DNA of 64,000 nucleotides from NCBI RefSeq assembly GCF_000003815.2, contig NC_049983.1, forward strand, positions 19,468,999-19,532,998, read 5' to 3'. Positions 11,005 through 61,250 of the stretch are shown piece after piece. Position numbers and translations under genes: made by a program. The notes below the pieces were generated by a model. That model saw only the letters and a program-made list of their open reading frames with translations, searched no databases and was not told where the DNA came from. How positions within the stretch are numbered: position 1 is the first letter of the stretch; the number at the start of each line of letters is the position of its first letter. Origin of the DNA: Branchiostoma floridae. Lineage: Eukaryota; Chordata; Leptocardii; Amphioxiformes; Branchiostomatidae.

Positions 11005-11021
11005 CTGTCCTTGGTGCTGAA
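11005..11021 (-). promoter_or_regulatory. RE1/NRSE-like site 1
   Basis: The minus strand reads TTCAGCACCAAGGACAG, 16 of 17 identical to the vertebrate RE1 core; the single difference falls in the two-base spacer between half-sites. In vertebrates this element binds the zinc-finger repressor REST/NRSF. Confidence 0.6.
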
Positions 11022-11728
11022 AGTTGTGATCTTACAAGTCAGATGAAAATGTAAGATCAAAATGAGACAGGAACAATCAATAGAAGAATGTTGTATGGAG
11101 AGAACATGCTGACTACTAAGCTATAGTTAGCAATTGACATACTTAAAGTTAAATCAAGTTGAATCTAATTAGATACCAGTTATAAAATGAAAAAAAACCT
11201 AATAGTATATAACAGATATACTATCAGTATAGCTATCAGAAAAAAAAGTAATTGATGTACTATTTCATGCAGTTCCAAATTACTCTCTCCATTCATTTCT
11301 GTTGAATTGTTACATGAAATTGCATCTATCAGTATCTACTGATGTTAGACTGCTTTTCTGAAAAGAACCTTGAATTGTGTTTCTCTATTAGTGTATTCAT
11401 GTCAGTAAGGACCAGAAAGTATTGCTGTTGCCAGCAGTTGTTTGATGGATGTTTTACTGTCGTAGTAAATCTCTGCTCCTGGCAGGGACTAAACTGAAAA
11501 TGCTTTTATCTGTCACATAAAGTCTTCCCTAAATCCACTGCAAATTCATCTGCTTTCAAATTTTACAAGTCCTTTCACAGGTAAGCTTTCAGTATGAGAT
11601 TTGACAGCTATGTCTGTTAGAAGGATGACTGTGCTATCATGCAGTATCACAGAGATTGTGATGGAATGACGCATGAAACAGTGATGTCACCACATTTTGA
11701 CTCATCATCTTGAAGGCATAATACTTAC

Positions 11729-11762
11729 TCAATGTATCTTCAGAATGTGTAGGCAAAACATT
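11729..11762 (-). CDS. candidate micro-exon
   Basis: A 34-nt segment sits between the acceptor GATCTTAGTTCACAG and the strong donor ATTGA|GTAAGT on the minus strand. It reads NVLPTHSEDTL plus one base (phase 0 in, 1 out), which fits the candidate exons at 14965-15018 and 7898-8055. It is too short to stand alone. Confidence 0.2.
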
Positions 11763-12282
11763 CTGTGAACTAAGATCTTGTAGCATATGAAACGGGTTGT
11801 ATTTTGACCTAATGGAGCAAAGAATGAAATCTATGTTACTTTGTTCTCATCTGAGGTACAATAATGTGATAACTAGGTGCCCTAAAGGGCATAAGTGACA
11901 AGGAAAAATGACTGTTGCCTTGTAGGTTAGCTATCAGCGGTGAGTCGAATGGACTGAAAGAGACAGATGGGGCTTGGCAAGGGTAGGATTTGCTCTGACT
12001 CCAATCTCATGGAGCTTTATTCAAAATTTAAGAGTGGCACCATGTTTCCATGTGGGCAAGCACTTTGTATGCAATGCCTGAAGACAAACGGATGGTAAGG
12101 AAGACCATCTGTTTATCTTCATCATTGTGGCTGCTGTGAAACTTTCATGTGGTCTTGGCTCACAAGGGAGACAGGGAATGATGCATTGCTCTGCTCAATC
12201 TGGCATCATCATTCTGGAGATATAGGAAAATTTTACTGGAACTACTACCAGATTTTCTCAATTAAAGCATGCACCCCAATTA

Positions 12283-12392
12283 AAGTACCCACTGGACAGA
12301 GCCACATGGAAGCGCAGTGTGAAGACTATCTGATTGCTGCCTATCCCAGTAGCAGTATAATAAAAAATGGATACTACTGCTACTACTACTAA
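12283..12392 (+). mobile_element. 3' end of a dispersed retroelement with (TAC)n-type tail
   Basis: The segment ends in a TACTACTGCTACTACTACTA tail. It is the inverted counterpart of 34248-34374, sharing GTGTGAAGACTA, CCCAGTAGCAGTATAA-like sequence and the triplet tail. Two copies in opposite orientation with a simple-sequence tail indicate a retroposed LINE or SINE 3' end. No reverse transcriptase is encoded here. Confidence 0.6.
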
Positions 12393-13277
12393 TTTGGGGA
12401 AAGCTCCAGACAAATTTGCTTGAATGAAATGTAGAACAGAAAAACCTGAAAAGTATGCACCCCTTCCCCAATCTTGTTGTGAGATTCACATATTTTGCTT
12501 GCTATTGTACCATGCAGAGTATTTGATTATTGCTTGGTACAGATTTAATGCAAGCATCGCAAAGTTAGACAGGTAGGTAATTCCACCATCATAGTGAAAA
12601 ATTGGTTCCAAGGAATGAATTTCTGGTTGTGCATTTAGCTTTAAGTGATCCAAATAGTCCTCTTTTAGTTTGATGTTGCATTAAAGTTTATTTTGCACAC
12701 AATGTACAACTGCTGATAGTAGTTAATCCTTTTTTCTCTGAAGAATGCCAAAAGGGAAGAAATTAGATTCATGGCATATTCACATATATCCATCCACCTC
12801 TCAAGTCAGCTTGCTAATGGTTTATGGTCCATTTTACTTCTAAATGTTCAGCTCAGATTAGAGTCGATCTCACACACAGGTGATTTTATGCCTTCAGCCC
12901 TGTTACCTGTAATGGATACACTATCAATCTACATTTACACTTACTCCGCAAGAAATGCCACTTCTCACCAGTCCTTAAATCTTCCAGACAAAGGGAAATT
13001 AAAGTGCAAATTGGATGGTGTCTCCTGCTACCAATTCCATTCATCTCCATGACTTCTCTCCTCCCAAACTATCTGTCATTCCGAGCCAAGTCAGCAGGGG
13101 TCTTAAATTCACAGCTTTAAATGGCGCTGGAGCTATTCATCAGTTAGAAAGGAATTTGTGTCTTCTTATGGTCGTAATCAAGAAGACTGGTGGGAATACT
13201 GAGGAGGTTTGCTACCACAACACAAGACTGGTGATCTGCAGAGATTTCAGTTTGCATGTTGAGCTTTTCCCATTCAA

Positions 13278-13500
13278 TACAAGATACAAGATACAAGATA
13301 CAAGATGACTTTATTGGGTATCGCAGTGTTGCCACTGAATTTAAAACCAATTTACAATGTTTAAAAACCTCTGATTTGACAGGCGCACATCACATGTGAC
13401 TTAGCGATACTAACAACAATGCTTTACGTTTGCACTTAAAATGATAAGGGCAGACGATCAATAAAATAACTAACATATCAATAACTTACAAGAAAACAAC
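13278..13500 (-). mobile_element. retroelement 3' end with (TCTTGTA)n tail
   Basis: Read on the minus strand, AATAAAGTCATC is followed by about four copies of TTGTATC (plus strand ACAAGAT repeats, 13278-13306). A polyadenylation-like AATAAA followed by a short-period tail is typical of LINE or SINE 3' ends. The 5' limit is not visible; 13500 is arbitrary. Confidence 0.45.
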
Positions 13501-14964
13501 CATCCTGGAGTAACAAAGGGGGGAAATAACTTGTGTATTGTCTGTAGTAGTCCCATCCATAATATCAATATCTTCTCCAGTTGTCATTGATAAAGACCAT
13601 GACGGCATGGGAATGTATTTCTTATATCAAAGTTGCAGAAGACATGTCAAGCTAAATTTTATCGAACCATGTCTCATGAAAATTATCATACCTTTAAAGA
13701 TTTAACTTATAATACAAAGCCTGAGTTATCATCTTTCATACTGAAGCATTGTTTTAGACTGTACAGTTCCATAACTCATTCAACTGACAACTGGGTTACT
13801 TGCAGATTATTACCACTGTGATTCTTTTTCCATTCATTTTCATCAAACTGCACTTGGTGCCATTCTCCATCCTCTTAAGCACAAAATCTTTGCAGCCAGC
13901 ATCAAGAAACGGTTCATCTTAATATTTCATCTAATCTACAGGATATTGCCTTCTTGTAGTAGATAAAGGCATGAAATTAGGGGAAGCAGGATGTAAGTGA
14001 GAGCAATGTGGTATCATAATAGATGATCTTCAATGAAATGATGTGCTTGCATATGACTTCTGATGAAGACCAAGCCATTCAAAGAACAGGGGGTTTTGTT
14101 GAAAGTTTTTGAAAGTGATTCATAAGAGATCTGCACAAAACCACACATGCCTCAAAAAGTCAAATAGTGAGAAAACAAGATCAAGAATGGACATAAATTT
14201 CAAAACCAATTGAAAACATAATGTAACTTTTGCTACACACCATTTTTAGAAGCACATTTTATGTTGATCAAGAAGGAAAAAACTCTTAAAGAATTATGTT
14301 CAGAGTTTTCCATAAAATTATGAAACTCAGGAAATGTAGGAGTCTTAATACACTGCAAAGAAATTGCCCTTTGAAAGTTAGCAGGAGATTTTCTGACCTA
14401 TGGTGCATCTGTTCACACTACCTCATCAACACTGCCCTAGTCCCCAAAGTCTGCACTATAACAAATGGTACTTTTAAAGGATTAACTGAAAAGCCATGGA
14501 CCAAAGCTGACGTCCGGCATTCTTTTAGCTTCTGTGTCTGATTTAAGCCTGTAAATGCAGTGTACACTTTTTGTTACATCACCAGAAAATACTCTGTGGA
14601 ATGTAATAGCAAAGAAGAAAGCGAGGTTTGCAAATACTAATAGCAGTTTTGACAAGCTTTTTCCCCCCAGAAAGTGCTAGCTGTAAAAGTTCAGTATATT
14701 CACCAGTGTTGTCACTCAATTGTTAGACTGAAAAAATGGTTTCTTTTAGCTTGTAAAATCCATATACTATGATTAAGAGTGACACAACATTTGTGCTGAA
14801 ATCATTTTTAGCTCCATAATCACGTCATGTATATCCTCTGATTCACTTATCTCCAAATTGGTGAGAAGATAAGCAGGCATAGGTAGATAAGATCATAGCA
14901 CGGTAATGGTGATGCGAGAAATGGAGGATGTATCTGTATCATCACTGCACTCACTAACCCATAC

Positions 14965-15018
14965 CTCAGATTCAGTTGGATGACCTTTGGAAATGTCATC
15001 TTTTATGGGATTAAGTTC
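14965..15018 (-). CDS. candidate internal exon
   Basis: A 54-nt minus-strand segment (18 codons, phase 0 in and out) has the acceptor GGACTTCACTTCCAAG and a good donor CTGAG|GTATGG. It reads ELNPIKDDISKGHPTESE. It does not match the exit phase of the next candidate upstream (15716-15794), so a short exon would be missing between them if both are real. Confidence 0.25.
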
Positions 15019-15493
15019 CTTGGAAGTGAAGTCCCAGGAAGTGAATTACAGAGAAAATCAGAGGTCTCCGACCTCATTATTTGAAAAGCAGTCGCCTACT
15101 TTGAATACTTTTGAATTTGAAGAGGGTTTGTATGTATCATTGATTATGAACAATTGAGAAACAAATATAATGTTATCTATCTTTTTTTTAAATTATGATT
15201 CATTAACATAGTCATAGAGACAGTCGGTATGATAAAGAAGGAAGTTGGAAAATTATATTGGCAAGTGCAGGTACAGGGAGACGCACTCCATGCTTATCTG
15301 CTAGTAAGACACATTTTCTGTTATTACTGTGGCTGTCATTTTACGCACCTGAAGGCAAATGCACCCCATCCTCCTTTTACCGAATTCCTGGAACTGCCAC
15401 TGCATGTAACCATTTCTGTTAACTTTCTTGCCAGTAATTACTTAACTCAAGATAGAGACTACACAAATCACAAAACGTCATGTGTTTCAAAGT

Positions 15494-15560
15494 GTGTGTA
15501 GTCCAGTGGTTAGCAGCCTTGCCTCTGGAACTAGAGGCCTTGAGTTTTGCTCACCTAAGG
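15494..15560 (+). mobile_element. degenerate tRNA-derived SINE head
   Basis: TAGTCCAGTGGTTAGCAGCC resembles a Pol III A box context, followed by GCCTCTGGAACTAGAGGCC (anticodon-arm-like hairpin) and GAGTTTTGCTC in the place of a B box. The decayed B box argues for a dead SINE and against a working tRNA gene. The downstream body is not delimited. Confidence 0.45.
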
Positions 15561-15715
15561 GTTGCATTCTTTAGGACAAGATGTTAAGCTGTGGTCCACT
15601 GTTCATTCTGATTGTTGAAAAGAGCTAGGGGAATTTCTCCGGTACAGTGAAGCTGTAAATACTGTACATAGTGTCTATCCTCTCTGTCACAACCAGTGGA
15701 AGACTTGCTCCTTAC

Positions 15716-15794
15716 TGACCTAAAACTGGATCGAAATCACTTTTTTTCCATGAGCCCGTCAGATATTGACAAGGGGTGCATACACAGATCATTT
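15716..15794 (-). CDS. candidate internal exon
   Basis: On the minus strand the acceptor TAGTTCTACTTCTTGTCACCAG leads into 79 open nt ending at the donor GGTCA|GTAAGG. Product fragment: CTPCQYLTGSWKKSDFDPVL. Phase is 1 in and 2 out, and the entry phase fits 16855-16996. Unrecognised. Confidence 0.25.
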
Positions 15795-16854
15795 CTGGTG
15801 ACAAGAAGTAGAACTACGTCACGTGTACACATACGGCATGCAGTAGTCCCATTATCTCAACCCTGTTCATCAGTCTGACTGTTGAGTGGATGCCATTGAC
15901 CTTGTGCAGGACAACATAACTGTTATTCTTGGAGATGCTTATCTCAATGAATGCCCAGTAGAGTGTACTTCAAAGTCTGAATTAGGTCCTGCTGGATTGC
16001 CGCATTATGTGATTTTTTTCTTGAATAAAACAGCTGTCTTTCTTTGCACTGTTTCATCTTCAAGATATGAAAAGGAGTATTGGAAATACATGTACATTAT
16101 TTATGTCAAGGTTGTTTTGAAGTGCCATCATTCAAATGGCACTGAAATACAACATTTTCTGATTATATTCATCCATAATAAGTGTTATGCAATCAGCAAG
16201 GATGTTTGCAGATAATGTACACCCTTCTGATGCTAGTGACCATCAAACTACAAACCATGCTTTCAGTTCTTGATTCCTGCCGTTAGGTAACGTTAATCAA
16301 GTTAAATTCTGTTTGTGACATCATAGTGAACACAGCAGTCTATTTTGAACCTGGTACTAAATCTTGCAAAATCATTCTTCTAAGAAGCAAACAGTGCATA
16401 ATCAGAGAGAAAATTGCCAGTTTTCATAATTTTTGTATTCACTTGATGAAGTGAAATGTTATGCAGGAAACTTTGGTGGCACTTCAACTTTCACTGCTCA
16501 AACTTCATATGTGGCCTTCTTGCAAATCCAGTGCTACTTGGCACCTTTGAAATGCCAACTACCCACTGAATTAGCCTTTGTGGTTTGATAAATGTGAAGC
16601 TACCATAAAGCTAATGAAGATTAAGAGATATTCGAGAAGGTACAAGTATTGGTTTCTGAATGTACCACCGATAACATAAACTAGCATCCAGTCCCCCACC
16701 CCCAAGCATTAGCAAAAGTTCAACTAAAAAGTGACTGATTCTGATTTTCAGTTGCTAGTTGTGAGCTTGAGAGGCATACGTTTTGCAGTGCTGTTAGCAA
16801 TTCCATCTAGTGTTACTGTTAGCAATTCCACAAGGTGTTTGAATGAGAACTTAC

Positions 16855-16996
16855 ATGTAAGATCAACCACCATGGCATATGCTCTTTCATCAACCACATG
16901 CTCACAGAATAGATACCATATTATCGTGTGGACAGCCATTGCCAATAATGTCAGTCTCTCAGTCTCAGCGAGGTTAATGGACAAAATGTGTAGGCC
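16855..16996 (-). CDS. candidate internal exon
   Basis: A 142-nt minus-strand segment has one of the best border pairs in the window: acceptor CCAACTTTTTCTTTAG and donor TTACAT|GTAAGT. It reads for instance LAMAVHTIIWYLFCEHVVDE, a hydrophobic stretch that could be helical. Phase is 0 in and 1 out, joining 19497-19619 upstream and 15716-15794 downstream in frame. No family recognised. Chance cannot be excluded because codon bias is weak. Confidence 0.33.
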
Positions 16997-17370
16997 CTAA
17001 AGAAAAAGTTGGATGTTTTTCTGCATCAGTTATTGATAGTGCACAAATACTTGTGATAGTCTGCCGGTTTGAAGATGGCTGCTGTAGATTGCACACAGAA
17101 TTGGGTAGCTGCTGTCTATAAAAAAAAACATCAACAGTCAGAGCCTACTTTCTGTGTCTATATACATTTCCTACCTTTCCCTGTGTACCCAGTACAAATA
17201 TAGATGGTCCTACGTTATCTTTACCATGGAGTAAGCCTCCTGCTCTTTATACTGCCAATCATGTAGATCCCTGACAATACTTTCTGGGATAGGGAATGTG
17301 GAGCGGTATTCGTAAGATTCTTTTGACCCTGTTGTTGATGTAGACAAGATGTCTAGGTTTCATTCTTGTC

Positions 17371-17565
17371 ATTTTTCATGCTCAAACTGTCCACCCTTCT
17401 GAGCGCTCAGAGACGATGTCAGGATATCAGAGTACTGAATCGCACAATCTATCTCCTTTTGTTTGGTGCGGAATGGCATGTACATGTATGGGGTAATCTT
17501 AGGCTGCAGATCTGAAGAGGCGTGCATATCATCAAAAGATGGCGGCGACCTCTCAGCACAAAGGG
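17371..17565 (-). CDS. possible exon, unresolved
   Basis: A minus-strand frame of about 65 codons contains SFDDMHASSDLQPKITPYMY and ends in TGA. Codon choice (CTG, CAG, AAG, GAG frequent) looks more coding-like than most of the window and G+C is locally higher. The acceptor (TTGTTGGATGGCAG) is poor and the phase does not fit the flanking candidates. A plus-strand frame is open over part of it. Confidence 0.2.
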
Positions 17566-19291
17566 CTGCCATCCAACAAAATCCTATGTACCTTTAAAAG
17601 TCAGGTAATTGAATTATCGTCCTGAAGTTCAAAAAGACCAGCCAGATCCCAGCTCAGTAGCACTTGTATCTGCATGTGTAATATCTTTGGCACAATTTCC
17701 AAAAACCCCTTTCATGTACTGCACTCTTTGATTTGCCTTGACTTTAATTTTCTATAGGCCTATTTTGGATTACCAGTGGTGGACATCTCATCTTTGCAGT
17801 CATGAACAGCCTACTTATGACTTTGCTTACTTTTTATCGTAATCACTATTGTATCTTATTTGTGATGAAAGAAGAACAGAGTACCCATAGACTTTTAGTT
17901 GAAAGGAATATTTGATTGTAAAAGATTCCAGGATTAGTGTTTTAATACAAAACATTGTTAGGTTTTATCTTGTAGTGGTTTGCACCATCAAACACTGTTG
18001 CTACTGGCATGTGATAGTATGGTAAGAAAACAATAAGCTAAAGTACATGAAAATGACAGTTGCATAGTTTATCAAGACTGCAAGCATTAGGAACAAAGAA
18101 TTCTTCTTAGAATTCTTTCATCTTCCTTTGTTCCTAGTCACAGCTGGCACAGCCCTTACAGTTGGCCAAATTCTTAGTGACAATCCTGTTGCTTTAGAAG
18201 TGTGACCCATGGCACTCTTGTCTGTCCTGATGCTGTCAGAAAGGGATCATTACACATATACTGTTTCTAGTGCAGATCAGGAGGCTAGAATGATGTGCAG
18301 TTTAGGAAAAAGTGGATTCGCAGAAAAGAAATTTGCAACAAAACAGAGTCAGCTTACAGATATGACTTATTTAAATGTGCCAGATATTGTAATTCTCAAA
18401 GTGGACAGATAATGAAGGACAGCGTGAGGATCTTACCATGGTCAGTATTGGTTGGAGGAGGCCATTTATGTTGCAACACATAACAGAACAATTTTGTAAC
18501 AATAGACCTCTTATAGTGTCTGTGTGACTCTAGGAATTGTGTCAAAGAATAACAGGCACAGGTTGTCCTTGGCGCTGACTTAGCCATTATTGTGCTTGCT
18601 TTATTTCAAATTGAAAGCAGTCCTTCTGAATGTAGTCAGCACTTAACAACGTTCTGCATGGCTATCCTAATATTTCACAGTGAAGCATGACGCCATGAGC
18701 CCTTGATTAGTTTTCATTCTTACAGAGGACAGCATCAGTATGTCTTTGTGAAATTATACGTATCTGTATGTTGTTAATCTTGATAACATGCATGCAAATC
18801 TAATGCAGGTTTGCTCGGTTGTATATCAATTCCAGGCAATCATCGCATCTGTCCACCTGCATTCATGAAAACAATCTCTTATTCTGGGACACGGTTGTCT
18901 ACAGCTGGAAAACATATTAATGGAACACTTAATGTCATTAGACAAGAATACATAATGTGATTTTGTATGATTAGGCCAGTAACTCAACAAAGGGCTTTTC
19001 ATCAAACTAGTAACAGTGAATTTCCTCTAAATGGATTTTCTTTGGTCAAATTGCATTTGCAATGTTTAGTCCAACATATTTAATCTTGTGAATAGATTCT
19101 TCATCAATGAAATTGTCATATATACTGTGTAACACTGTAACAGTATGGCCATCTGTGAAATAACGGTTAGGCCATCTCAATTCAACTGTTTGGCTTTCAC
19201 AAACCATGATAGAGAAACTTTGAATTTACACACTTTTCTTTCAATGTAATTCCTGCCTATTGTAGGAATTGTGAAAAAGAACAAGTTGTGT

Positions 19292-19308
19292 CTCTCCTTG
19301 GTGCTGAA
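19292..19308 (-). promoter_or_regulatory. RE1/NRSE-like site 2
   Basis: The minus strand reads TTCAGCACCAAGGAGAG, 15 of 17 identical to the RE1 core. Both changes are at positions the degenerate RE1 consensus tolerates (spacer and the S position of RGMSAG). Confidence 0.5.
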
Positions 19309-19496
19309 TTTGTTGACATTGTCTTTGATCTTCATTTCTCACTAGAAAGTTCTCCTGTTAACCTTCTCCTTGCTGCCTACCTCCCTTACCAATGCAAATA
19401 TGGTGCCAAAAAGGCTACTTTGCCATCAAGAAGGTTAGATTGTTCAATCAATATCTTTTTCTGAGAATTTCAGTTCATAAATTGGGAAGTGTTTAC

Positions 19497-19619
19497 TTGT
19501 CCTGATGTTGTTAGCATTGATTGTGATGGAGGGTTGGTGCAGACCTTAGGGTTGGTAGGAAACAATGGGTTGTTTTGGCGCTGCCTCATCTTATTCCAGA
19601 AAGAGGTCTGTTCTTTCTC
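19497..19619 (-). CDS. candidate internal exon
   Basis: A 123-nt (41-codon) minus-strand segment starts and ends in phase 0. The acceptor is GGCTGTCTGCACAG and the donor GGACAA|GTAAAC. Product fragments: EKEQTSFWNKMRQRQNN and PSQSMLTTSGQ, polar and Q/N rich. It joins in phase with 21375-21431 and 16855-16996. Unrecognised. Confidence 0.33.
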
Positions 19620-21374
19620 CTGTGCAGACAGCCATCCCCTTCTATTCATCACAACCCATCATTCCTGTCAGGCAGCGAGTTCGTAAACACGGAAACCACT
19701 TGTGCCAAATCACCCAGCAAGTTGGCTTAAATCTACAGCAAAGCCAGCGCAGGCTATCCCCTGTGCTGTCCATTAGTGTTAATATTAACAGCACTTATAG
19801 GAGCTGTCCACTTTCTTTCTTAACTATTCAATCGTGGTATGAATATTCCATGTCCGTCGCTTGGGACCCGGCCTTTTGCACAACAGCTGTTGCGTAGAAG
19901 TTTACCTGCACCTGAGGGAAGGGAGCAAAAAAGTAATTAAATTTCTGTGTGTATGCAATATCATGTAGTGATTCAACCTTAGAAAATCTACTTGTTGTAA
20001 TTACACAGCTTAAATGTATTTTTCAAAGCATGGTTTTGTCTTTGAATATTAAGATATCCCTGAATGTTCTACCTTTAACATTACATGTCTACAGAAACCC
20101 TTTTTGTAATTATAGCTATCTTAAGATGCTTTGCCAAGCCTTGGTGTCTGTAATGTTTACAAGATTGCAGATTAGTAGGCATAGTCTTCACTCAGTTGAT
20201 TGCTGAAATTGGTGAGTATTATGTACATGTACTTTGCAGCTAAGAAAAGTCTGCAAAGTCACGTCAGGTATTTTTTTCTTTGGTATCTACTGCCAAAAGT
20301 GTCCCTAAAATGTTGCTTTGGTCATGTTGTGACTTTAAAACTTCAACCAAAGAAAAGTTGTAAATCGCTGACATTTACAACCATTCATTTACTAAGACTA
20401 CCTTTTGACAGACAAGCTCAACACGGTGCTAGTTTTCTGTTAATCATACACATTTGCCAAGTTTTCCAGACTTAAGCTGGCTTACGGCAGGGTGCGCTGT
20501 AATCCATGTGGAAAGTCTGGTATCCGGTTTGAGACTTGCTGAAGTGTGTCTTCATTTGTCTTCTTATCCTATCAGCCACCTGCACACTTGTAAGAGGGAC
20601 AAAAAAGGTGGGCTCTTAATCCCAATGCCCTAGTGTAACCAAGCCCCTTGCAGTTTTTCAGGTGCAATGGTTATTTGCTTTCGTGCAGGATAGGTTTGTT
20701 ATCTCAGTATAACTTAAATTTCAGCATATGGTTGACTAAACTAATATTTTTAACTATCCTGAGGATAACAGCAAATGAGAATATGCTGGGTTACCCTTGC
20801 CTGCAAGTTATGCATATCCTTCCAGAAGACAAATGTAATAGTTGTGCATTTCAATATAATATTGCCATATCTACAGGCATAGATATATCTTGATGGCACC
20901 ATCATCATTTCATCTCTGTGTTGCACTGTGGCGTCTCCAGAGGCAATATGTGCATGAGCAGAAAGTCTCCAGAGAGGCAGCGGGAATGGTAGTCATCCAT
21001 CATTTGCTGTCACCCTCCTCTAAAAATTGTAGGGACTGGGCTGTGCATTTGTACAAATGGCCTTAGGCAAAGCCCACCTTAGGAAACTGGGATGAGCGGA
21101 GTTAGTACTGTTGTGGTCGTGATGTGGCTTCTGAATTATGCATGGCTAAATGGATCGCTTTTGAAGTTATCAGACGGTACCTCCTGTGAAGTTACGTTCT
21201 TTTTATTTAGTCCAGTATATGTGGACACAGGCAGGTCAGTGACCTCTTAAAAGGCCAGTCTGCAAGCCAAATCAACGAAAGTTCTTGTACATTCTTCTTA
21301 TCATGAAAACAGAAAACAGTGACATAAGAAATACCAATACAATCATTATGATTATACCTGGGACAGATACATAC

Positions 21375-22593: not shown

Positions 22594-22613
22594 TCTTGTC
22601 TTGTCTTGTCTTG
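22594..22613. repeat. (TCTTG)4 microsatellite
   Basis: Four copies of TCTTG follow an A+T-rich stretch. This may be the tail of a retroelement on the plus strand, as at 13278, but no element body was recognised. Confidence 0.6.
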
Positions 22614-25810: not shown

Positions 25811-27148
25811 CGCTAGATGGAAGACTTAGTTAAATTGCAGCATCCCTACAGATGTTTGACACCAAACCTTGCCTGATCAATAGTTATGAGGCCAGGAATA
25901 GATACTAAACTATACAAATGGGACCATTTCTGTGGCAATAGTGGATGGATGGTCACTCTAACATGCAAATCCGCATCCCGATGGTACACAAAGTTTTGCC
26001 TTCACGTAAAGTTCTCGGCGTGTCTGCGTGCTCCAAAATCCGTCCAATGCCCTACGAGTTGGTACGGAGGCGGTACTTACCACTTACGCATCCCAAAAGA
26101 TTGCCCACGTTTTGGCGCGTAGACAGCATGTATTTGCACGTACTGCGGGTTGCGCCCTTAGCTTTAGGTAAATTCCATCCCTACAGATGTTTGACACCAA
26201 ACCTTGCCTGATCAATAGTTATGAGGCCAGGAATAGATATAAATGGTACCATTTCTGTGGCAATAGTGGATGGATGGTCACTCTAACATGCTTATCAGTG
26301 GGGTCAACTGGTCATTTTTAGGATCAGCAAGGCCACGGTCGACCTTCTCCTTGCTCAGGTCAAAGTTAATGCGGTCAATCAAATAAATGAATTGCTCTCA
26401 ATATGACCTTAACAACTAGTGCCTGTAAAAGGAAAGCATTTAGATGTTTGTTCTACATAATTGGGTGTAACAACCAGACTACGTGCCAGTTGTGTATACG
26501 ACATGTCAGAGCGATAAGTCTGATCCACTCAAAGCGAGATGGATTTTTTTATAAGTGTGGTGGGTTCTTTATCATGCTCTGGGTGTGGCTTTCCCCAAAC
26601 ATGGCACTTTTAGCTTCATGTCTCATCTGAGAGGAAGACTTTTGAAAGACGCTAGATGGAAGACTTAGGTAAATTGCAGCATCCCTACAGATGTTTGACA
26701 CCAAACCTTGCCTGATCAATAGTTATGAGGCAAGGAATAGATATAAATGGGACCATTTCTGCGGCAATAGTGGATGGATGGTCACTCTAACATGCTTATC
26801 AGTGGGGTCAACTGGTCATTTTTAGGATCAGCAAGGCCACGGTCGACCTTCTCCTTGCTCAGGTCAAAGTTAATGCGGTCACTGAAATAAATGAATTGCT
26901 CTCAATATGACCTTAACAACTAGTGACTGTAAAAGGAAAGCATTTGATAGATGTTTGTTCTACATAATTGGTAGACCACTTTTGGGTGTAACAACCAGGC
27001 TGCGTGCAAGTTGTGTATACGATCCACTCAAAACGGGATGGACCACTGCTCTTGTTTGATAAGTGTGGTGGGTTCTTTATCATGCTCTGGGTGTGGCTTT
27101 CTTCAAACATGGGATGTCTAGCTTTCTGTACCATCTACGAGGATTTTC
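25811..27148. repeat. tandem duplication (~490-bp unit, two and a third copies) with a GC-rich insert
   Basis: Partial copy X (25811-25966), full copies Y (26165-26650) and Z (26651-27148) share GCTAGATGGAAGACTTAG, CCTACAGATGTTTGACACC, GATCAATAGTTATGAGG and ATGCTCTGGGTGTGGCTTTC. X breaks off at ACATGC and is followed by about 195 bp of GC-richer sequence absent from Y and Z. A fragment of the unit (GATCAATAGTTATGAGCCCA, about 30591-30625) lies 3.5 kb away, so the unit may derive from a dispersed repeat. Confidence 0.85.
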
Positions 27149-38576: not shown

Positions 38577-38593
38577 TTCAGCACCAAGGACAG
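38577..38593 (+). promoter_or_regulatory. RE1/NRSE-like site 3
   Basis: TTCAGCACCAAGGACAG, 16 of 17 identical to the RE1 core with the difference in the spacer. It lies 49 bp upstream of MITE A4. Confidence 0.6.
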
Positions 38594-38937: not shown

Positions 38938-38954
38938 TTAAGCACCAAGGACAG
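38938..38954 (+). promoter_or_regulatory. RE1/NRSE-like site 4
   Basis: TTAAGCACCAAGGACAG, 15 of 17 identical to the RE1 core; one change in the spacer and one (C to A) in the left half-site, so weaker than site 3. Confidence 0.45.
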
Positions 38955-45884: not shown

Positions 45885-45901
45885 CTGTCCGTGGTGCTGA
45901 A
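45885..45901 (-). promoter_or_regulatory. RE1/NRSE-like site 5 (exact core)
   Basis: The minus strand reads TTCAGCACCACGGACAG, identical to the 17-bp RE1 core, followed by GGAA. It lies 6 bp from a plus-strand donor-like TAG|GTGAGT and inside short frames open on both strands (45820-45907), so overlap with an exon is possible. Confidence 0.7.
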
Positions 45902-51628: not shown

Positions 51629-51840
51629 AGGCAAGTTCACCTTTATCTGCTGGGTAATATATATCCGTTGTTTTGAAAAACAGAGTATTTATCAATATCG
51701 AATGCAAATTGATGGAAGGCATTTTAAAACTGCAGTATTTTCAAAATATTACAGTTTAAAACCATACTTGCATTCTCTTAATACTTTTCTTGAAAAACAA
51801 CGGATATAGGTTTCCCTGCAGATAAAGGTGAACTTAGCAT
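51629..51840. mobile_element. family A palindromic MITE, copy A8
   Basis: Complete hairpin with GCAAGTTCACCTTTATCTGC at the left, AGATAAAGGTGAACTTAGCAT at the right and TATTTTCAAAATATTACAG at the centre. TA follows on the right. Confidence 0.85.
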
Positions 51841-52514: not shown

Positions 52515-55500
52515 TAAACTTTTTTGGTAGCGGGAGCATGGTTTTGTCCCATATATGCAAATGAGCAGCATGCATACATTCACATGCTAATAAGTACGTG
52601 TAATTTAACATAAGCACTTTTTGTACATTTTGGTTCACACTGTACACTCCAGTACAGTTCTGTACACTCTTGTTCACTCTGTACTCTCCAGCTTCACTCT
52701 AGCGCACTCTTATACACTCTGGTACACTCTTATACACTCTAGTTCACTCTGTACACTTTGGTTCACTCTGTACTCTGCTTCCCTCTATTCACTCTAGCGC
52801 ACTCTCATACACCCTTATACACTCTGGTACACTCTAGTTCACTCTGTACACTTTGGTTCACTCTGTACTCTGCTTCCCTCTATTCACTCTAGCGCACTCT
52901 TATACACTCTTATACACTCTGGTACACTCTTATACACTCTAGTTCACTCTGTACACTTTGGTTCACTCTGTACTCTGCTTCCCTCTATTCACTCTAGCGC
53001 ACTCTTATACACTCTTATACACTCTGGTACACTCTTATACACTCTAGTTCACTCTGTACACTTTGGTTCACTCTGTACTCTGCTTCCCTCTATTCACTCT
53101 AGCGCACTCTCATACACTCTTATACACTCTGGTACACTCTAGTTCACTCAGACTGTACACTTTGGTTCACTCTGTACTCTGCTTCCCTCTATTCACTCTA
53201 TCGCACTCTTATACACTCTTATACACTCTGGTACACTCTAGTTCACTCTGTACACTTTGGTTCACTCTGTACTCTCTAGCTTCACTCTAGCGCACTCTTA
53301 TACACTCTTATACACTCTGGTACACTCTAGTTCACTCTGTACACTTTGGTTCACTCTGTACTCTGCTTCCCTCTATTCACTCTAGCGCACTCTTATACAC
53401 TCTTATACACTCTGGTACACTCTTATACACTCTAGTTCACTCTGTACACTTTGTTTCACTCTGTACTCTGAGCTTCACTCTAGCGCACTCTTATACACTC
53501 TGGTACACTCTTATACACTCTAGTTCACTCTGTACACTTTGGTTCACTCTGTACTCTGCTTCCCTCTATTCACTCTAGCGCACTCTTATACACTCTTATA
53601 CACTCTGGTACACTCTAGTTCACTCTGTACACTTTGGTTCACTCTGTACTCTGCTTCCCTCTATTCACTCTAGCGCACTCTTATACACTCTTATACACTC
53701 TTATACACTCAGGTACACTCTAGTTCACTCTGTACACTTTGGTTCACTCTGTACTCTGCTTCCCTCTATTCACTCTAGCGCACTCTCATACACTCTTATA
53801 CACTCTGGTACACTCTAGTTCACTCTGTACACTTTGGTTCACTCTGTACTCTGCTTCCCTCTATTCACTCTAGCGCACTCTTATACACTCTGGTACACTC
53901 TCCTACACTCTAGTTCACTCTGTACACTTTGGTTCACTCTGTACTCTCTAGTTCACTCTGTACCCTTTGGTTCAATCNNNNNNNNNNNNNNNNNNNNNNN
54001 NNNNNNNNNNNNNNNNNNNNNNNNNNNNNNNNNNNNNNNNNNNNNNNNNNNNNNNNNNNNNNNNNNNNNNNNNNNNNACACGCACGTAAGACGCTTTAAG
54101 AACTAGAGTGTATAAGAGTGTACCAGAGTGTATAAGAGTGCGCTAGAGTGACGCTGGAGAGTACAGAGTGAACCAAAGTGTACAGAGTGAACTAGAGTGT
54201 ATAAGAGTGTACCAGAGTGTATAAGAGTGAACCAGAGTGAACCAAAGAGTACAGAGTGAACTAGAGTGTACCAGAGTGTATAAGAGTGTATAAGAGTGCG
54301 CTAGAGTGAATAGAGGGAAGCAGAGTACAGAGTGAACCAAAGAGTACAGAGTGAACTAAGAGTGTACCAGAGTGTATAAGAGTGAACCAGAGTGAACCAA
54401 AGAGTACAGAGTGAACTAGAGTGTACCAGAGTGTATAAGAGTGTATAAGAGTGCGCTAGAGTGAATAGAGGGAAGCAGAGTACAGAGTGAACCAAAGAGT
54501 ACAGAGTGAACTAAGAGTGTACCAGAGTGTATAAGAGTGTATAAGAGTGCGCTAGAGTGAATAGAGGGAAGCAGAGTACAGAGTGAACCAAAGTGTACAG
54601 AGTGAACTAGAGTGTACCAGAGTGTATAAGAGTGTATAAGAGTGCGCTAGAGTGAAGCTGGAGAGTACAGAGTGAACCAAAGTGTACAGAGTGAACTAGA
54701 GTGTATAAGAGTGTACCAGAGTGTATAAGAGTGCGCTAGAGTGAAGCTAGAGAGTACAGAGTGAACCAAAGTGTACAGAGTGAACTAGAGTGTACCAGAG
54801 TGTATAAGAGTGTATAAGAGTGCGCTAGAGTGAATAGAGGGAAGCAGAGTACAGAGTGAACCAAAGTGTACAGAGTGAACTAGAGTGTACCAGAGTGTAT
54901 AAGAGTGTATGAGAGTGCGCTAGAGTGAATAGAGGGAAGCAGAGTACAGAGTGAACCAAAGTGTACTGAGTCTGAGTGAACTAGAGTGTACCAGAGTGTA
55001 TAAGAGTGTATGAGAGTGCGCTAGAGTGAATAGAGGGAAGCAGAGTACAGAGTGAACCAAAGTGTACAGAGTGAACTAGAGTGTATAAGAGTGTACCAGA
55101 GGGTATAAGAGTGCGCTAGAGTGAAGCTAGAGAGTACAGAGTGAACCAAAGTGTACAGAGTGAACTAGAGTGTACCAGAGTGTATAAGAGTGTATAAGAG
55201 TGCGCTAGAGTGAATAGAGGGAAGCAGAGTACAGAGTGAACCAATGTGTACAGAGTGAACTAGAGTGTACCAGAGTGTATAAGAGTGTATGAGAGTGCGC
55301 TAGAGTGAATAGAGGGAAGCAGAGTACAGAGTGAACCAAAGTGTACAGAGTGAACTAGAGTGTATAAGAGTGCACCAGAGTGTATAAGAGTGCGCTAGAG
55401 TGAAGCTGGAGAGTACAGAGTGAACAAGAGTGTACAGAACTGTATTGGAGTGTACAGTGTGAACCAAAATGTACAAAAAGTGCTTATGTTAAATTACACG

Positions 55501-55582
55501 TACTTATTAGCATGTGAATGTATACATGCTGCTCATTTGCATATATGGGACAAAACCATGCTCCCGTTACCACTTTTTTTTA
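52515..55582. repeat. ~3-kb inverted repeat with minisatellite arms (foldback-like)
   Basis: Left arm 52515-53977 and right arm 54078-55582 are reverse complements. The outer ~125 bp of each arm is unique sequence (GGTAGCGGGAGCATGG at the left; CCATGCTCCCGTTACC at the right) and is nearly identical between arms. The inner ~1.35 kb is built of 10-bp monomers (TTATACACTC, TGGTACACTC, TAGTTCACTC) organised into about 13 higher-order units of 90-105 bp per arm, each with one GCGCACTC block. Translations of the array are chance. The structure resembles a foldback transposon, but no target duplication was determined. Confidence 0.9.
53978..54077. other. assembly gap (100 N) at the palindrome centre
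   Basis: Undetermined bases exactly at the axis of the inverted repeat. The true loop or spacer is unknown. Confidence 0.99.
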
Positions 55583-57717
55583 ATGCTCAACTTTATTGTA
55601 TCTTCATTTTCCTTGTTTCTTTTCTGTTAAATTTCTTGTGTGATATTATTTAGTTCAATAGTGTACTAGATCCATTAATGCCATTATGATCATTTCTATT
55701 ACATCACTTACAGCTACTGACATGAACATTATGTAAGTTGTCTGCACAAGTTACTTCTGCCCATTAAACATTGCTCACGAAAGCTGAAACCTATTGTATA
55801 AAATTATATAGGTCATTGACTATGATATATAACAAGCAACAGGAATCAGACCTCATTAAGTTAATCATTTGTTATACAGATGATCTGAAAATTTATCTTT
55901 CTGTCAGATTTGTTTGCTGCGGGTGATTGTTGAGGGAGATGGAGAGAAAAAAATACTTTTTTTGAAGTTCATGTATGCCTCATTCTATATCGCAACAGAC
56001 TTTCTGGCACCTACATTTATAGCATGCTTTGAACCATTGATATGATTCTTCCTGTCTGCTATAAAAAGAACACAGTTAAAAGCAGACTGATGCAAAGGCT
56101 GTTACCAGATAAGGGACAGTCTGTTGTCTAAATCTATTTACTGACACTCTGACTGTTTCTGAACAGTCGTGATGAAATATGACTCAAGAAAACTGTTCTG
56201 ACACTCTGGCTATTAAAGGCCAGTCGATCTGTCTTCAAGGCCTTGTCACCAAGCAATTTTATTTTATAAGTAGAGACTGTGTAGTAAATGGTGACTTTTA
56301 ATGCTGTATTCTCTTAATCCCTTGTGACCGATTAAACCTTTCCGAAGGAAGCAAACCTGGCATGAGGCTAGGCTGTTGTTTTACGACAAAATGTCTATAT
56401 CCACTTAAAAATTTTGTATGTGTCTCATACATGTATTTCATGTACATATATCCCGCTTAAAACCATTTGGAGTTCACAGGAGGCAGAGGGTAAGTAGTAA
56501 CACCCTAATTGTTTTTAGAAGGGGATGTAGAATTTGTTTGACAGCTTGATAACCAATCAATGTAAGTTTGCTAGCCCTAATCTAAATTGATAGTCTTTGA
56601 AAATGACTCTCCAAAATATCAGGCTGAGTATGTGTAATGAGTGCTTCCTTCAGACAATGTCTGGCAAGATTTAAACAGTTGCAGCTCATTTGTAATTTCA
56701 CCCATAGACTTTGTTTTAAAGATGTAACTTTATAGAGTCTATACATGCATCACTGATATATGAAACTTTTTTTATCCAATTTTCAATGCAATTCTTTGAA
56801 GGAAAATCTATATTCAATCTGGCAATTTAAAGCACTATCCAATGTGTGCTGACATACAGCAGCAAATGCCAGTTATAGCATCATAAAGGTTTGATAAATG
56901 GTTTCCAAGAGGCACACAGTTTGGAAATATCTCTCTGAATTGTACCAAAATAACAATGTGTGGTATTCCTGACACCTGCAGTGTCTGCTGCAGCATGTGG
57001 TTATTAATTGTGGACAGGGATTGCCATCAGCTCGCTTTATTGACGTTTTTAAGCACCCAATTTATATGTGGAAATGGGATGTTAGAGTGGACCAATGGTA
57101 GGCAAGGGAGTAGCCTTTCTCATTGCCGTCAGCAGGAATTCCTGATCCCGATAGTAAACGTATTCACGAGTCAATTTCACTGCTTGATTGCAGATAAATC
57201 TCCACCTTTATTTCAAATGTGGAGCCCAGGTACGAATGAAAGACCACATGCAATTGGCTGAGTTCTTAGCTCTGTACTTTGCATGTTTTGCTCAGCCAAT
57301 GAGAGGGTGCGTTATAGCATGGTTTCTGGACCACTAGGTGTAGCAGAAGTCAATTTTCATGGGTGATAGCATTCCTGTCTAACTTGTTCAGTTTGACAGA
57401 TGAGTGGTCATCCACACAGCTTGGTGTCTTCGTTCTGTAATCCTTTCTTTACTGTGTTGTCTGGTGATGATCAATAACTGAGCTTTGCATCCATCTATTA
57501 ACCTATTTGCATTTAGGTAGGTATTCAATAATCTCTCTTTGACCAAATCATGTTGTGGCTTTGCAATGAAAAGGTTATCACGGGGATCACAGTGGACAGT
57601 AGGTTTATTAATGTTGTTATTCTTTGCAGCAAAGGTCAGAAACATTATTTATCTTAGTGCCTGATTCATCAGAAATAGAGCGTATCCAGACCAGGCTTCC
57701 AGAAATCCCTTAGGATA
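55583..57717. other. unassigned DNA
   Basis: No element recognised. A minus-strand frame at 57388-57645 has an acceptor-like CTGACCTTTGCTGCAAAG and a donor-like AACACA|GTAAAG bracketing about 57 codons (for example PRDNLFIAKPQHDLVKERLL), a weak exon candidate. Confidence 0.3.
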
Positions 57718-58083
57718 TAACCTTCTTACGCTCACTGCTTTGTGAGTGCATTAAAACATGAACCAGATGTTCCATTCTACCCTCGTATGTCCATGTAGGT
57801 TGGAGTGTTTGTTGTAGGCCAGTTTTATAGAGTAGAAGTGATGCACTTTGTACAGAACAATCAAGAGGAATGTTACAACCGTTGTTCTCTGATGGATAAG
57901 GACCTTCTTATGCTCACTGCTTTGCTATAAGTGCATTAAAACATGAACCAGATGTTCCATTCTAGCCTCGTATGTCCATGTAGGTTGCAGTGTTTGTTGT
58001 AGGCCATTTTTATAGAGTAGAAGTGATGCACTTTGTACAGAGCAATCAAGAGGAATGGTACGTTGTTCTCTGATAGATAAGAA
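57718..58083. repeat. tandem duplication, ~183-bp unit, two copies
   Basis: Both copies contain CTCACTGCTTTG, CATGAACCAGATGTTCCATT, CTCGTATGTCCATGTAGGTT and AGAAGTGATGCACTTTGTAC. Copy 2 starts near 57901. Confidence 0.92.
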
Positions 58084-58118
58084 TGGGACCCATCCATTGG
58101 TAATGTTGTAACCAAGTG

Positions 58119-58135
58119 TTCAGCACCACGGACAG
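58119..58135 (+). promoter_or_regulatory. RE1/NRSE-like site 6 (exact core)
   Basis: TTCAGCACCACGGACAG, identical to the 17-bp RE1 core. It lies about 35 bp after the 183-bp duplication and outside both of its copies. Confidence 0.7.
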
Positions 58136-59615
58136 ATGTTTATAATCTTCGTCAGACATTTAAAATCATTGCAAAAACATAAGTGTGTTTGTAGACAATC
58201 AAAAAATTCTTAATAGTTGATATTGCATAGGGGACAAAACTACCTTTCTAATATTGAAATTGTGTATCCATTCCCATACCATGTTTTAGGTGATGTGTAA
58301 TTATTCTGAATGAAAAAAGGAGCCACATACCATACCGTAAGTTAAGTCCGAACAAGCCCACAGCATATGCTATTAGCCTCTATCAGTGTGACATGTACCA
58401 GTGCAACCTTTTTGACAGCTGAATGCTTGATTGTTTCCTCACCGGCAGCATCACAGTTAATTCCATAACATCTTATCGTGCATATTTATGGAGATCAAGG
58501 TCAGACACATGACCCATCCCGAAAACTCATCTTCGCCGCCACATAAACAGAAGTGTGAACACAACGTTAAGTGTTACTGACATGAGATGACTTTGATATG
58601 GGGCATGCTCTGCGAATGTAATTGAGCGAGGAAGCTCGTAAACATATATTAAGCGAAGTCAACCCACTTCTCGCCTGTGATCCTATAGATAAAACAAAGG
58701 GCGCCCGTGTGTCAGAAAAGCTGATAGAAGCTCTCTGCTTGCAATAAATTTTATCTGCACTCTGTCCAGTGAGAAATGAGCAATCACCAATACATAAATT
58801 CTGAAATATTATCATTACACTACAGCAAGGGTAGATATACAGTCATATACCTTTGTGATAGCATTGATGTGGCCGTAAACTTACAACTGATGACATTTAT
58901 GTGACCAAAGATCACGGATCATATACAGCCGTTACACCACGGTACAGTAAATTGTGTGTTTTACTGCTTGACAGGACGCTATTAGTATGAAGAATCAGTA
59001 TGAGGGTTTGTCAGTTTACTCTATGACAACAATGCTACCACGATGAAGGTCATGTATTCCTCTGACATCTTTCTTTGTGTGGGCACCACAATTCTCTGCC
59101 TTTTATGGAAACTAAACTTAATTATACAAGGAAACCCACATGGCCAGTTCCTCATGGGAGCACTTAAACAGAGCTCAATAGTTGAGTGAGGATTTCCAGA
59201 AAACAAAGGGAGTTGTTACCACCCATAACCTGTCCATCCTGTGTTATATATTTGTGATGGATTGATATCTTGTGTGATAGTGATCTGTCAATATCTTGCT
59301 AAATCAGAGTGCTTCTGTGTACCTGGCTTTTGTTGGGGTGAATGGTTTTGACATGCATTCTATTTCCTGTAATTGTTGCTTCAAGGTATTGTAGTCAAGA
59401 CAATATGCATGTACATTGTTGCTGAATAAACCTTTGACAACTTTGGAAATGTAGTGTAGAAGAAAATGGCCTGCTGAAGCCAGGAAAAATCTTTAACATG
59501 ACATCTTCTCCTAAAAAATATAAGAAGTCTATACTAATGGTATTGTCCTTACTAATTTTGAGCACTGTGGGGGGGGGGGAGCATGCTCTATTGTTATCAG
59601 GGGTATATACTACTG
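58136..59615. other. unassigned DNA
   Basis: Two minus-strand frames (58567-58815 and 59021-59206) look mildly coding, but only one border of each is convincing. A run of G (59570-59579) lies just before the next element. Confidence 0.3.
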
Positions 59616-60025
59616 GACAGTTCAGATGGTAGTCATAACTTTTCCTCAAATAACATTGGGGTTTGGTGCAGTTTCAAATATGGTAATGTTAGTAATTGAA
59701 ATAAAGGGGACACAAAATGTGTCTCTCCAGACATTTTAAATGGAATAGCCCCAAGCAATGAAATATTCATTAGAATTTCAGGTATCTGTTTCTCTTATGT
59801 TGGTGCTTCTTGTATGCTTGCAGCTTTTGTCTGTCTGATCTCACAACTTTGGATGGGGGTTGTGAGATTCTCAGCTTATGTTATGTTACATGTATTGATG
59901 TACCTGCCAAATACACATCAAAGACAACACAACATAACAAGTCACAGTTCTCTCAGACATGACATACTGTACCAAACCCCAATTTCATTTGTGGAAAAGT
60001 TATGACTACCATTATCTAAACTGTC
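59616..60025. mobile_element. element with ~65-bp terminal inverted repeats
   Basis: GACAGTTCAGATGGTAGTC at the left and its counterpart ACTACCATTATCTAAACTGTC at the right start inverted repeats extending through AAGTTATGACTACC and CCAAACCCCAATTTCAT. The inside carries the first copy of a tandem repeat whose second copy lies to the right. The superfamily and target duplication are not resolved. Confidence 0.6.
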
Positions 60026-60615
60026 TCTAATGAAATATTCATTAGAATTCCAGGTGTCTGTTTCTCTATTTTTGGCCCTTCACTTGCAAACACATGTATG
60101 CTTGTAGCATGGGTCTGTCTGATCTTTGGAGAAGTGTTGTAAGATTTCTGGCTTTGTGTGATGTAGCCTGTATTGATGTGCCTGCCAAGTACACATCAAA
60201 GACAACACAACATAAGGCCACACCAATTTAATTTCTTGGTTCACGGATTCGCTCGCTCCTATTTTTTGGAAAAAAAAATAAAAATAAAAATTACCATTCA
60301 GCAAATTTTCACAATTACTGAAACCATTCACCAACTTTCTGGTGTAGCAAATTGGCCTTTATATTATAAGCTCCTTAAAGTGTGGGTACAGGTGCTGTTA
60401 CTGTACAATAATAGTGTTTTTGTACTTTTTTCAAGCTGAAAACTTTTTTTCTTCATGTTTTGGATTAGCCGTTACCTTTACCCCAACCATTTTACAATTT
60501 TTATTTTTATTTTTATTTCGCCGTTTCGCTCCATATTTTTTATGAAAAAATCCGTGAACCAAGAAATTAAATTGGTGTGGCCTAACGAGCTGTAGGTCTC
60601 TCAGACATGGCACCT
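59755..60615. repeat. tandem duplication, second copy split by a transposon
   Basis: Copy 1 (about 59755-59985) and copy 2 (60028-60215 plus 60583-60612) share GAAATATTCATTAGAATT, ACACATCAAAGACAACACAA and CTCTCAGACATG. Copy 2 is interrupted after CATAA by the element at 60216-60582. Confidence 0.8.
60216..60582. mobile_element. PIF/Harbinger-like MITE with TAA target duplication
   Basis: 367 bp with inverted termini GGCCACACCAATTTAATTTC and GAAATTAAATTGGTGTGGCC extending through TTGGTTCACGGAT. It is flanked by TAA on both sides, the 3-bp TWA duplication typical of PIF/Harbinger. The paralogous empty site CATAACAAG in copy 1 of the surrounding duplication confirms the borders. No transposase is encoded. 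Confidence 0.85.
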
Positions 60616-60692
60616 ACATTTACCTGAAAGGTCGGTTTAACAGTAATGGGGGTAGGAAGGGACAGATGCCAAAATATGGCCACTCACAAACA

Positions 60693-60766
60693 CGACCTTT
60701 GACCTCCACCTGTCCCCAGGGAGACCAAATGGCAGATTGCATCATCATAATGTTGACTTTTGACCT
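60693..60766. promoter_or_regulatory. pair of DR1-like sites
   Basis: CGACCTTTGACCT (60693-60705) and TGACTTTTGACCT (60754-60766) each resemble a direct repeat of the nuclear-receptor half-site with 1-bp spacing. Binding is inference. Confidence 0.35.
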
Positions 60767-61233
60767 TTATCAAAGTCTTGACTAGCAGACGGGTCTAGAC
60801 ACAGCAAAAAGAGAAACTTGGTTTTTACAGTTACTGTAAAAGCCGACCCAGTGTGACATTACTTAACAGATATGTTCCATGACATTAGACATGGCATATA
60901 TAAGTCTGACCATAGTCTGGATGAACCTTTGGAAATGGAAAGGCTCATTTTTTCATCTGCCATTCTTTAAAGACATGGGGTAGTGTCACTGAATGTTTTT
61001 GCTTGACAGCCAATTAAATGGATCTTTTAAAAGTTTCTGTTATACCTTGCTGTGCTGGGAAGAGTTTTCCTTCACGGCTAAGTCTTGAAATCTATAGAGG
61101 ATGAAATAAGATGACTTGAAGAGAAAATGTGGCACTTGTCCTTGATGCTAAAACTTTGCCAAAAATTGTGCTTATCTAACTGTATAACAAGGATTTTGCT
61201 TCATGTCTTGCTGAGAATAATCCATATCTGCCC

Positions 61234-61250
61234 CTGTCCTTGGTGCTGAA
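61234..61250 (-). promoter_or_regulatory. RE1/NRSE-like site 7
   Basis: The minus strand reads TTCAGCACCAAGGACAG followed by GGGGC, 16 of 17 identical to the RE1 core. A degenerate relative lies 82 bp away at 61136-61152. Confidence 0.6.

Follow-up and report, generated by a model that had tools for sequence, protein, structure and literature searches.

Tail-less RE1/NRSE-like 17-mers are abundant throughout the lancelet genome, are associated with tandem duplication, and coexist with a probable REST ortholog

The window, a stretch of 64,000 nucleotides of Branchiostoma floridae DNA, contains exactly seven matches with at most three mismatches to the 17-mer TTCAGCACCACGGACAG, while 100 dinucleotide shuffles gave a mean of 0.11 and a maximum of 1. 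All seven had been listed at the positions given in Table 1 by the first-pass annotation, which had been made from the letters of the window. Its description of them was also accurate: two sites are exact (45885 and 58119), and three differ in the spacer alone (11005, 38577, and 61234). According to TRF, 0/7 sites lie inside a tandem array, and decayed partial copies on the same strand were detected near two of them. Sites 11005 and 19292 have the flank ACACAAC on the motif strand in common. This similarity, previously noticed as GTTGTGT, is real and comprises a match of 24 bp at 95.8%.

Table 1. RE1-core sites, their decayed copies, and adjacent repeats in the window
Feature	Position	Strand	Remarks
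RE1-core site TTCAGCACCAAGGACAG	11005..11021	-	Differs at spacer position 11 alone
Decayed partial copy	18563..18579	-	Oriented like site 19292, at a distance of 729 bp; 3 mismatches with a free spacer
RE1-core site	19292..19308	-	Besides spacer position 11, one further change beyond the spacer (GGAGAG)
RE1-core site TTCAGCACCAAGGACAG	38577..38593	+	Differs at spacer position 11 alone
MITE-like element	between sites 38577 and 38938		
RE1-core site	38938..38954	+	Besides spacer position 11, one further change beyond the spacer (TTAAG); oriented like site 38577
RE1-core site TTCAGCACCACGGACAG	45885..45901	-	Exact
185-bp tandem duplication	57720..58081		Immediately upstream of site 58119
RE1-core site TTCAGCACCACGGACAG	58119..58135	+	Exact
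Decayed partial copy	61136..61152	-	Oriented like site 61234, at a distance of 98 bp; 3 mismatches with a free spacer
RE1-core site TTCAGCACCAAGGACAG	61234..61250	-	Differs at spacer position 11 alone

A Pfam scan of 278 window ORFs (stop-to-stop, at least 55 aa, after removal of low-complexity ORFs, those containing N, and those inside the large minisatellite) revealed no convincing domain, and no neuronal gene was recognized among them. Four weak single matches with E values of 0.001 to 0.008 were judged to be due to chance. Known RNA families were not found in the window. The genes that were recognized lie outside it and encode LRR-Ig membrane proteins, a P450, and a carboxylesterase. On the mitochondrial contig, COX1 has GTG as its start codon and lacks AGR codons. 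Conserved residues fit a reading of AAA as Lys and of ATA as Met, and these features agree with a cephalochordate source. The GFP family would be expected in Branchiostoma; a search for it found no match, but its controls found none either.

The first-pass annotation regarded the sites as RE1/NRSE-like. The vertebrate RE1/NRSE matrix JASPAR MA0138.2 is 21 bp long (PMC11025195), and the words in the window would represent its 9+2+6 core minus the CGCC end. As in vertebrate RE1, they consist of the left half TTCAGCACC (exact in 6/7 sites, with one change in the remaining one), a 2-bp spacer (7/7), and the right half GGACAG (6/7). The CGCC tail, in contrast, is present in 0/7 sites, and the nine full 21-mers with this tail in the whole genome correspond to the chance level. 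The designation thus holds for both halves and their spacing, but not for the tail. Furthermore, when TTCAGCACC-GGACAG pairings at distances of 0 to 44 bp were collected from 264 kb, 9 of the 10 were spaced by exactly 2 bp. Within the spacer, position 11 is variable, like the spacer of vertebrate RE1, whereas position 10 deviates from the vertebrate element in its preference for A (28/34 singleton sites). In zebrafish, 16-bp cores without the tail functioned as silencer elements (PMC3531662).

Genome-wide, TTCAGCACCANGGACAG has 7,150 exact matches in 513 Mb, and its reversed control has 0. Up to two mismatches from the A form of TTCAGCACCANGGACAG were found at 20,139 places (control, 78), which corresponds to 1 per 25.5 kb. 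The definition published for zebrafish yielded 19,050 sites in the lancelet genome (control, 81), compared to 1,102 RE1 sites in the zebrafish genome under this definition (PMC3531662). This is 17 times the zebrafish count and about 48 times the density. The reversed-pattern controls, together with the shuffles of the window, speak against an artifact of chance or base composition, the probability of which we consider negligible. The density of the 17-mer characterizes the genome as a whole, and approximately 20,000 sites are far beyond the needs of a neuron-specific regulon.

The idea that the locus harbors a special dense cluster mostly dissolved in this comparison, since seven sites were seen where 2.5 were expected from the genome-wide rate (P = 0.0145). 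What remained is a local excess: the independent exact loci in the window number 5 versus 0.31 expected from the rate along the initial 9.42 Mb of contig C1 (P = 1.7e-5), and because of this larger excess the local peak still stands. A region of approximately 153 kb that comprises the window and its surroundings holds 22 sites. The window is therefore a mild local peak and no unique cluster.

Transposable elements have partly spread the RE1 sites of vertebrates (PMC4499139), and the lancelet sites might likewise be fossils of one mobile element, their number reflecting old transposition. However, among the matches listed per window site, those covering the core were only 18 to 33 bp long, and the sites had no common flank beyond about 16 bases. 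Additionally, 33 isolated sites showed no significant flank bias in columns -150 to +150 other than an A at -12 (23/33 sites; Bonferroni-corrected P = 0.003), making an origin from a single mobile element highly unlikely. In a scan of the window for 17-mers with at least five places (tandem arrays masked, low-complexity words excluded), nearly all listed runs could be assigned to these sites or to a single MITE-like element with its vicinity. A further run, at 26242, lies in a local duplication. Since the seven sites have no longer DNA in common, one transposon family was rejected as their source, in line with the first-pass annotation, to which no such spread was apparent. For the window, the single-element reading is largely refuted.

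Tandem duplication left clearer traces. Among the first 100 exact places listed, 65 are located in 9 arrays, and minisatellite amplification thus makes up much of the count; the numerous copies inside such arrays distinguish the lancelet sites from vertebrate RE1. On contig C1, tandem head-to-tail copies were found at 9/44 loci, and a 43-bp unit is recurrent in 5 of the 9 usable arrays. Within 300 bp of isolated sites, seven partial copies with up to three mismatches have the same orientation as the site (6/25 loci) and none the opposite one. Tandem copies accompany 5/25 anchors, compared to 85/2,914 random words (P = 8e-4). Between neighboring loci, orientation agreed in 11 cases versus 1 at distances of 5 to 25 kb in one list, and in 7 versus 4 at 1 to 25 kb in a denser list. 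Short local tandem arrays with units of 10 to 160 bp, called mirages, are documented in amphioxus at the Adh3 and globin genes (PMC3087553). The arrays described here resemble them in type and animal group, but one 17-mer recurs across arrays of different units and periods, and mirages, in contrast to the 17-mer arrays, are described at exon-intron boundaries (PMC3087553).

These traces and the documented mirages would also be compatible with a neutral minisatellite word, i.e., a duplication-prone core without a protein reader, the match of which to RE1 is coincidental or ancestral. We consider this unlikely: neutral decay of copies would not be expected to keep the 17-mer at isolated sites while their flanks lack a common signal, it is implausible that 15 specified RE1 positions would be matched by chance at the correct spacing, and the genome contains a REST-like gene whose contact residues match (see below). 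The substitution rate in the core was below that in the rest of the unit in 8/9 usable arrays, a test in which units were cut at the core and ascertainment favors the core; array L053 showed the opposite trend, its core rate being not lower. The core was the single most conserved stretch in just 1/9 arrays. The sample comprised 15 loci treated as arrays or small groups, 6 of which had too few regular units. Selection on the core may be reflected in these rates.

REST is the nerve-gene silencer protein of vertebrates. A REST-like exon is located within C4:20317640-20318020(-) and continues into the adjoining stretch. It shows 57% identity to fingers 3 to 6 of human REST over 107 aa without gaps; of the eight clustered fingers of REST, numbers 3 to 6 and a part of finger 7 could be read before Ns cut the latter, and neither fingers 1, 2, and 8 nor the N-terminus were seen. 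Of the DNA-contact residues of fingers 4 to 6, 10/12 are identical to those of human REST, while control finger triples reached at most 4/12 (66 triples from 8 loci). The contacts of fingers 5 and 6 are all identical. Finger 4 retains 2/4, and yet CAG is retained in the sites. In addition, the start of finger 7 (ADRS) is identical to vertebrate REST, and fingers 3 and 4 are similarly joined without a TGEKP linker. Finger 3 differs most, with 1/4 contacts kept and the helix key KFLK in place of the human SYHK.

A candidate for the single C-terminal finger that ends vertebrate REST was detected at C4:20253606(+) with an E value of 1.7e-4 (next match, 0.5) and is directly followed by a stop codon. 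Unlike in vertebrate REST, however, the assembly places this finger and the exon on opposite strands, 64 kb apart, and we can therefore only infer that they belong to one gene.

Overall similarity separated the C4 exon less clearly from other zinc-finger genes. Its bit score over fingers 3 to 7 was 141, versus 134 and 133 for two poly-zinc-finger genes. A query with REST fingers 2 to 5 ranked a C5 zinc-finger gene first, the C4 exon second, and a C19 zinc-finger gene third; with fingers 5 to 8, the best match (48%) was in poly-zinc-finger genes. PF24540, the Pfam model of a REST-like finger, was unspecific, as two other zinc-finger genes outscored C4, and when the C4 exon was compared with PDB, the best 60 of 97 matches included CTCF, ZNF568, and others, but no REST. 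The C5 and C19 genes were rejected as REST, being without its contact residues. The search for a REST/NRSF ortholog, suggested by the first-pass annotation, led to the C4 gene, which is probably this ortholog, judging from contact residues that fit the motif.

The reader of the 17-mers could instead be a different poly-zinc-finger protein that shares the RE1 core, for example one silencing minisatellites. There is no shortage of such genes: matches were numerous on C158, C16, C200, C323, and C10, in all at least 262 with the query of fingers 5 to 8 and at least 294 with that of fingers 2 to 5, and poly-zinc-finger genes in other animals often target repeats. Nevertheless, among the small part of the zinc-finger genes that was read, no control triple approached the contacts of the C4 gene, and we regard a different reader as quite improbable.

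We rather favor, with some confidence, the explanation that the approximately 20,000 sites are tail-less RE1 elements that are read by lancelet REST and were multiplied by local tandem duplication. Lancelet REST would dock on the 17-mer with fingers 4 to 8, its C-terminal finger would recruit CoREST-type repressors, and nearby chromatin would be silenced or partitioned. Finger 3 is the predicted reader of positions 18 to 20; that it keeps just 1/4 of the human contacts would explain why the tail is unselected. Local tandem duplication would be the main source of new sites and would generate direct repeats and minisatellites; the flanks would subsequently decay, with the core retained.

More tentatively, cephalochordate REST may be a genome-wide chromatin organizer, instead of a switch for neuronal genes that has about a thousand sites, and may act on approximately 20,000 tail-less RE1s that spread as minisatellites under selection for the core. 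Vertebrates would later have pruned the sites and gained the CGCC contact through a change in finger 3, or lancelets would have lost it. This broader scenario is doubtful. No report of REST or RE1 elements in amphioxus was found among the top-ranked literature matches, in which subscription journals are thinly covered, and the terms "REST" and "NRSF" are absent from the main text of the main paper on lancelet regulation (PMC6292497).

If the favored explanation is true, the REST-RE1 pair is older than the vertebrates, and the lancelet holds RE1 elements at a density far exceeding that of zebrafish, in a shortened form consistent with a change in a single finger. It would then become testable how a central silencer of nerve genes originated, and the lancelet would provide a clear case of a transcription factor site multiplying as a minisatellite.

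Direct inspection found all seven RE1/NRSE-like 17-mers that the first-pass annotation had listed in the window; two are exact, three are changed at spacer position 11 alone, and two carry one additional change. No further site with up to three mismatches was present in the window, and a dinucleotide-type expectation obtained by shuffling was 0.11 sites versus the seven seen. When all 17-nt words of the window were scanned (tandem arrays masked, low-complexity words excluded), nearly all runs of words with at least five places fell in or around a MITE-like element or came from the seven sites. In BLAST searches with about 300 bp around each site, core-covering matches spanned 18 to 33 bp among the up to 14 matches listed for each site. 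At 38577 and 38938, most of the matches listed were to the neighboring MITE-like element. We conclude from these matches and the word scan that the 17-mer itself is essentially all that the seven sites have in common. The MITE-like element (GGATATAGGTTACCC...GGATAAAGGTGAACT) is dispersed, with one copy lying between 38577 and 38938.

Features in and around the window and the REST candidate (window coordinates unless a contig is named)
Feature	Position	Strand	Remark
RE1-like site	11005	-	
RE1-like site	19292	-	
RE1-like site	38577	+	
RE1-like site	38938	+	
RE1-like site	45885	-	
RE1-like site	58119	+	
RE1-like site	61234	-	
MITE-like element	22813, 23648, 29966, 38807, 44309, 49387, 51790		also inverted copies
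Repeat families D5, D6, D13, D19	25811-27143		60-266 bp copies, tandem and dispersed
Two large GTACACTCTG/complement arrays	52623-55435		10-bp word, 95-bp higher order
Gap	53978-54077		100 N
LRR-Ig membrane protein gene	84-86 kb upstream		
LRR and Ig exons, a P450, a carboxylesterase	82-100 kb downstream of window end		
REST finger candidate	C4:20317685-20317990	-	

The window corresponds to C5:19468999-19532998. The genome searched comprised 513,431,437 bases in 431 contigs; PMC7269912 gives 489 Mb of contigs and 19 chromosomal scaffolds for the published assembly of the Florida lancelet, Branchiostoma floridae. Exact TTCAGCACCANGGACAG occurred 7,150 times and its reversed control 0 times. 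With up to two mismatches, TTCAGCACCAAGGACAG occurred 20,139 times (control, 78), or once per 25.5 kb, so that 2.5 sites are expected in the window (P = 0.0145 for seven). The cluster had been taken as unusual; the abundance is instead genome-wide, and what stands locally is that the window is a mild peak of this remarkable feature. Under the site definition applied to zebrafish, TCAGCACCNNGGACAG with one mismatch, we counted 19,050 sites (control, 81), whereas PMC3531662 gives 1,102 for zebrafish, 17-fold fewer and, when genome size is taken into account, about 48-fold fewer per Mb.

In the first 9.42 Mb of contig C1, the 100 exact places listed formed 44 loci, one per 214 kb, and 65 of the places sat in 9 arrays. 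At this rate, 0.31 exact loci are expected in the window versus the 5 found (P = 1.7e-5). With two mismatches and spacer position 11 free, the 264 kb around the window held 22 sites, from -78 kb to +75 kb in window coordinates, and its last 89 kb held none. Neighboring exact loci on C1 spaced 5 to 25 kb apart were alike in orientation 11 to 1; agreement was weaker (7 to 4) in a denser list spaced 1 to 25 kb.

Among 33 isolated sites (26 on C1, with array loci L053 and L057 left out, and 7 in the window), the C1 sites were picked by exact match, which fixes the core columns and leaves the flanks free; no information extended past the 17-mer except for a weak preference at position 18 and an A at -12 (23/33; Bonferroni, 0.003), which is perhaps a further protein contact. 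Spacer position 10 was A in 28 of 34 singletons with the spacer left free. In the 264 kb, TTCAGCACC occurred 16 times versus about 1.4 expected, and nine of its ten pairings with GGACAG at 0 to 44 bp were at exactly 2 bp. The full 21-mer with the vertebrate CGCC tail occurred only 9 times in the genome; by our own arithmetic, a random tail on the 7,150 exact sites would give 12 to 28, so the count is about at random-tail level. As described in PMC3531662, tail-less 16-bp cores worked as silencer elements in zebrafish, and the tail is therefore dispensable there.

Array units measured 24 to 56 bp, most commonly 43, with one core each; longer decayed arrays with units of about 125, 178 and 556 bp lie beside the window. 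Around 25 isolated sites, partial copies (up to three mismatches, within 300 bp) numbered seven on the same strand, in six loci, and none on the opposite strand, the random level being 0.018 per anchor; at up to five mismatches, the contrast was weaker (12 versus 3). Tandem copies were commoner than at random words (5/25 anchors versus 85/2,914; P = 8e-4). Substitution rates were analyzed in 15 loci (arrays or small groups), 9 with enough regular units. The core rate was below that of the rest of the unit in eight and above it in L053, and the core was the single most conserved stretch only in L063. Since the arrays were located through exact cores, the test leans toward the core, and these rates offer weak evidence of selection on it.

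No convincing protein domain was recognized in the window. The GTACACTCTG arrays form a near-perfect inverted repeat flanking the gap, possibly an assembly effect. On the mitochondrial contig, COX1 starts with GTG and contains no AGR codons; AAA and ATA fit Lys and Met at conserved places. These traits, like the genome size, point to a probable B. floridae origin. The GFP family, expected in that species, had no match, although the controls of that search had none either.

Queries with human REST fingers pointed to a candidate on contig C4. It ranked second with fingers 2-5 (51%), behind a zinc-finger gene on C5 (42%), and reads as fingers 3-6, an intron, and the start of finger 7 before Ns. 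Its identity to human REST was 57% over 107 gapless residues, versus 39-44% for other zinc-finger genes; in longer alignments, two of these scored 134 and 133 bits versus its 141. Contact residues (-1, 2, 3, 6) of fingers 4-6 agreed with human at 10 of 12 positions; among 66 triples taken as controls from eight zinc-finger loci, those on C5 and C19 among them, none exceeded 4. A query with the human C-terminal finger had its best match (E = 1.7e-4; next, 0.5) 64 kb away on the opposite strand, followed by a stop codon, as in REST. That a top-three match of one query lies so near the top match of another within 513 Mb argues for one locus; an orientation error at the gap is a possible cause of the opposite strands. 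The C4 gene is a probable REST. Dense poly-zinc-finger clusters occur on contigs C158, C16, C200, C323 and C10 (at least 262 and at least 294 matches in two finger searches).

By the finger code, REST fingers 4 (R..N) and 8 (K..N) each read the AG of a CAG, finger 5 (Q..H..R) reads GGA, and finger 7 (D..N) reads the AC of CAC; finger 6 showed no clear fit. These assignments would place fingers 8 to 4 above positions 3-17 and finger 3 above 18-20, where the tail starts. Lancelet fingers 5 and 6 are unchanged from human and finger 4 retains its two AG-reading residues; finger 3 retains one of four contact residues. This pattern fits the tail-less 17-mer. The RE1 reading of the seven sites is partly supported, and the probable REST gene gives it firmer ground than the first-pass annotation could know. 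On this reading, lancelet REST would bind the 17-mers, recruit CoREST, and silence.
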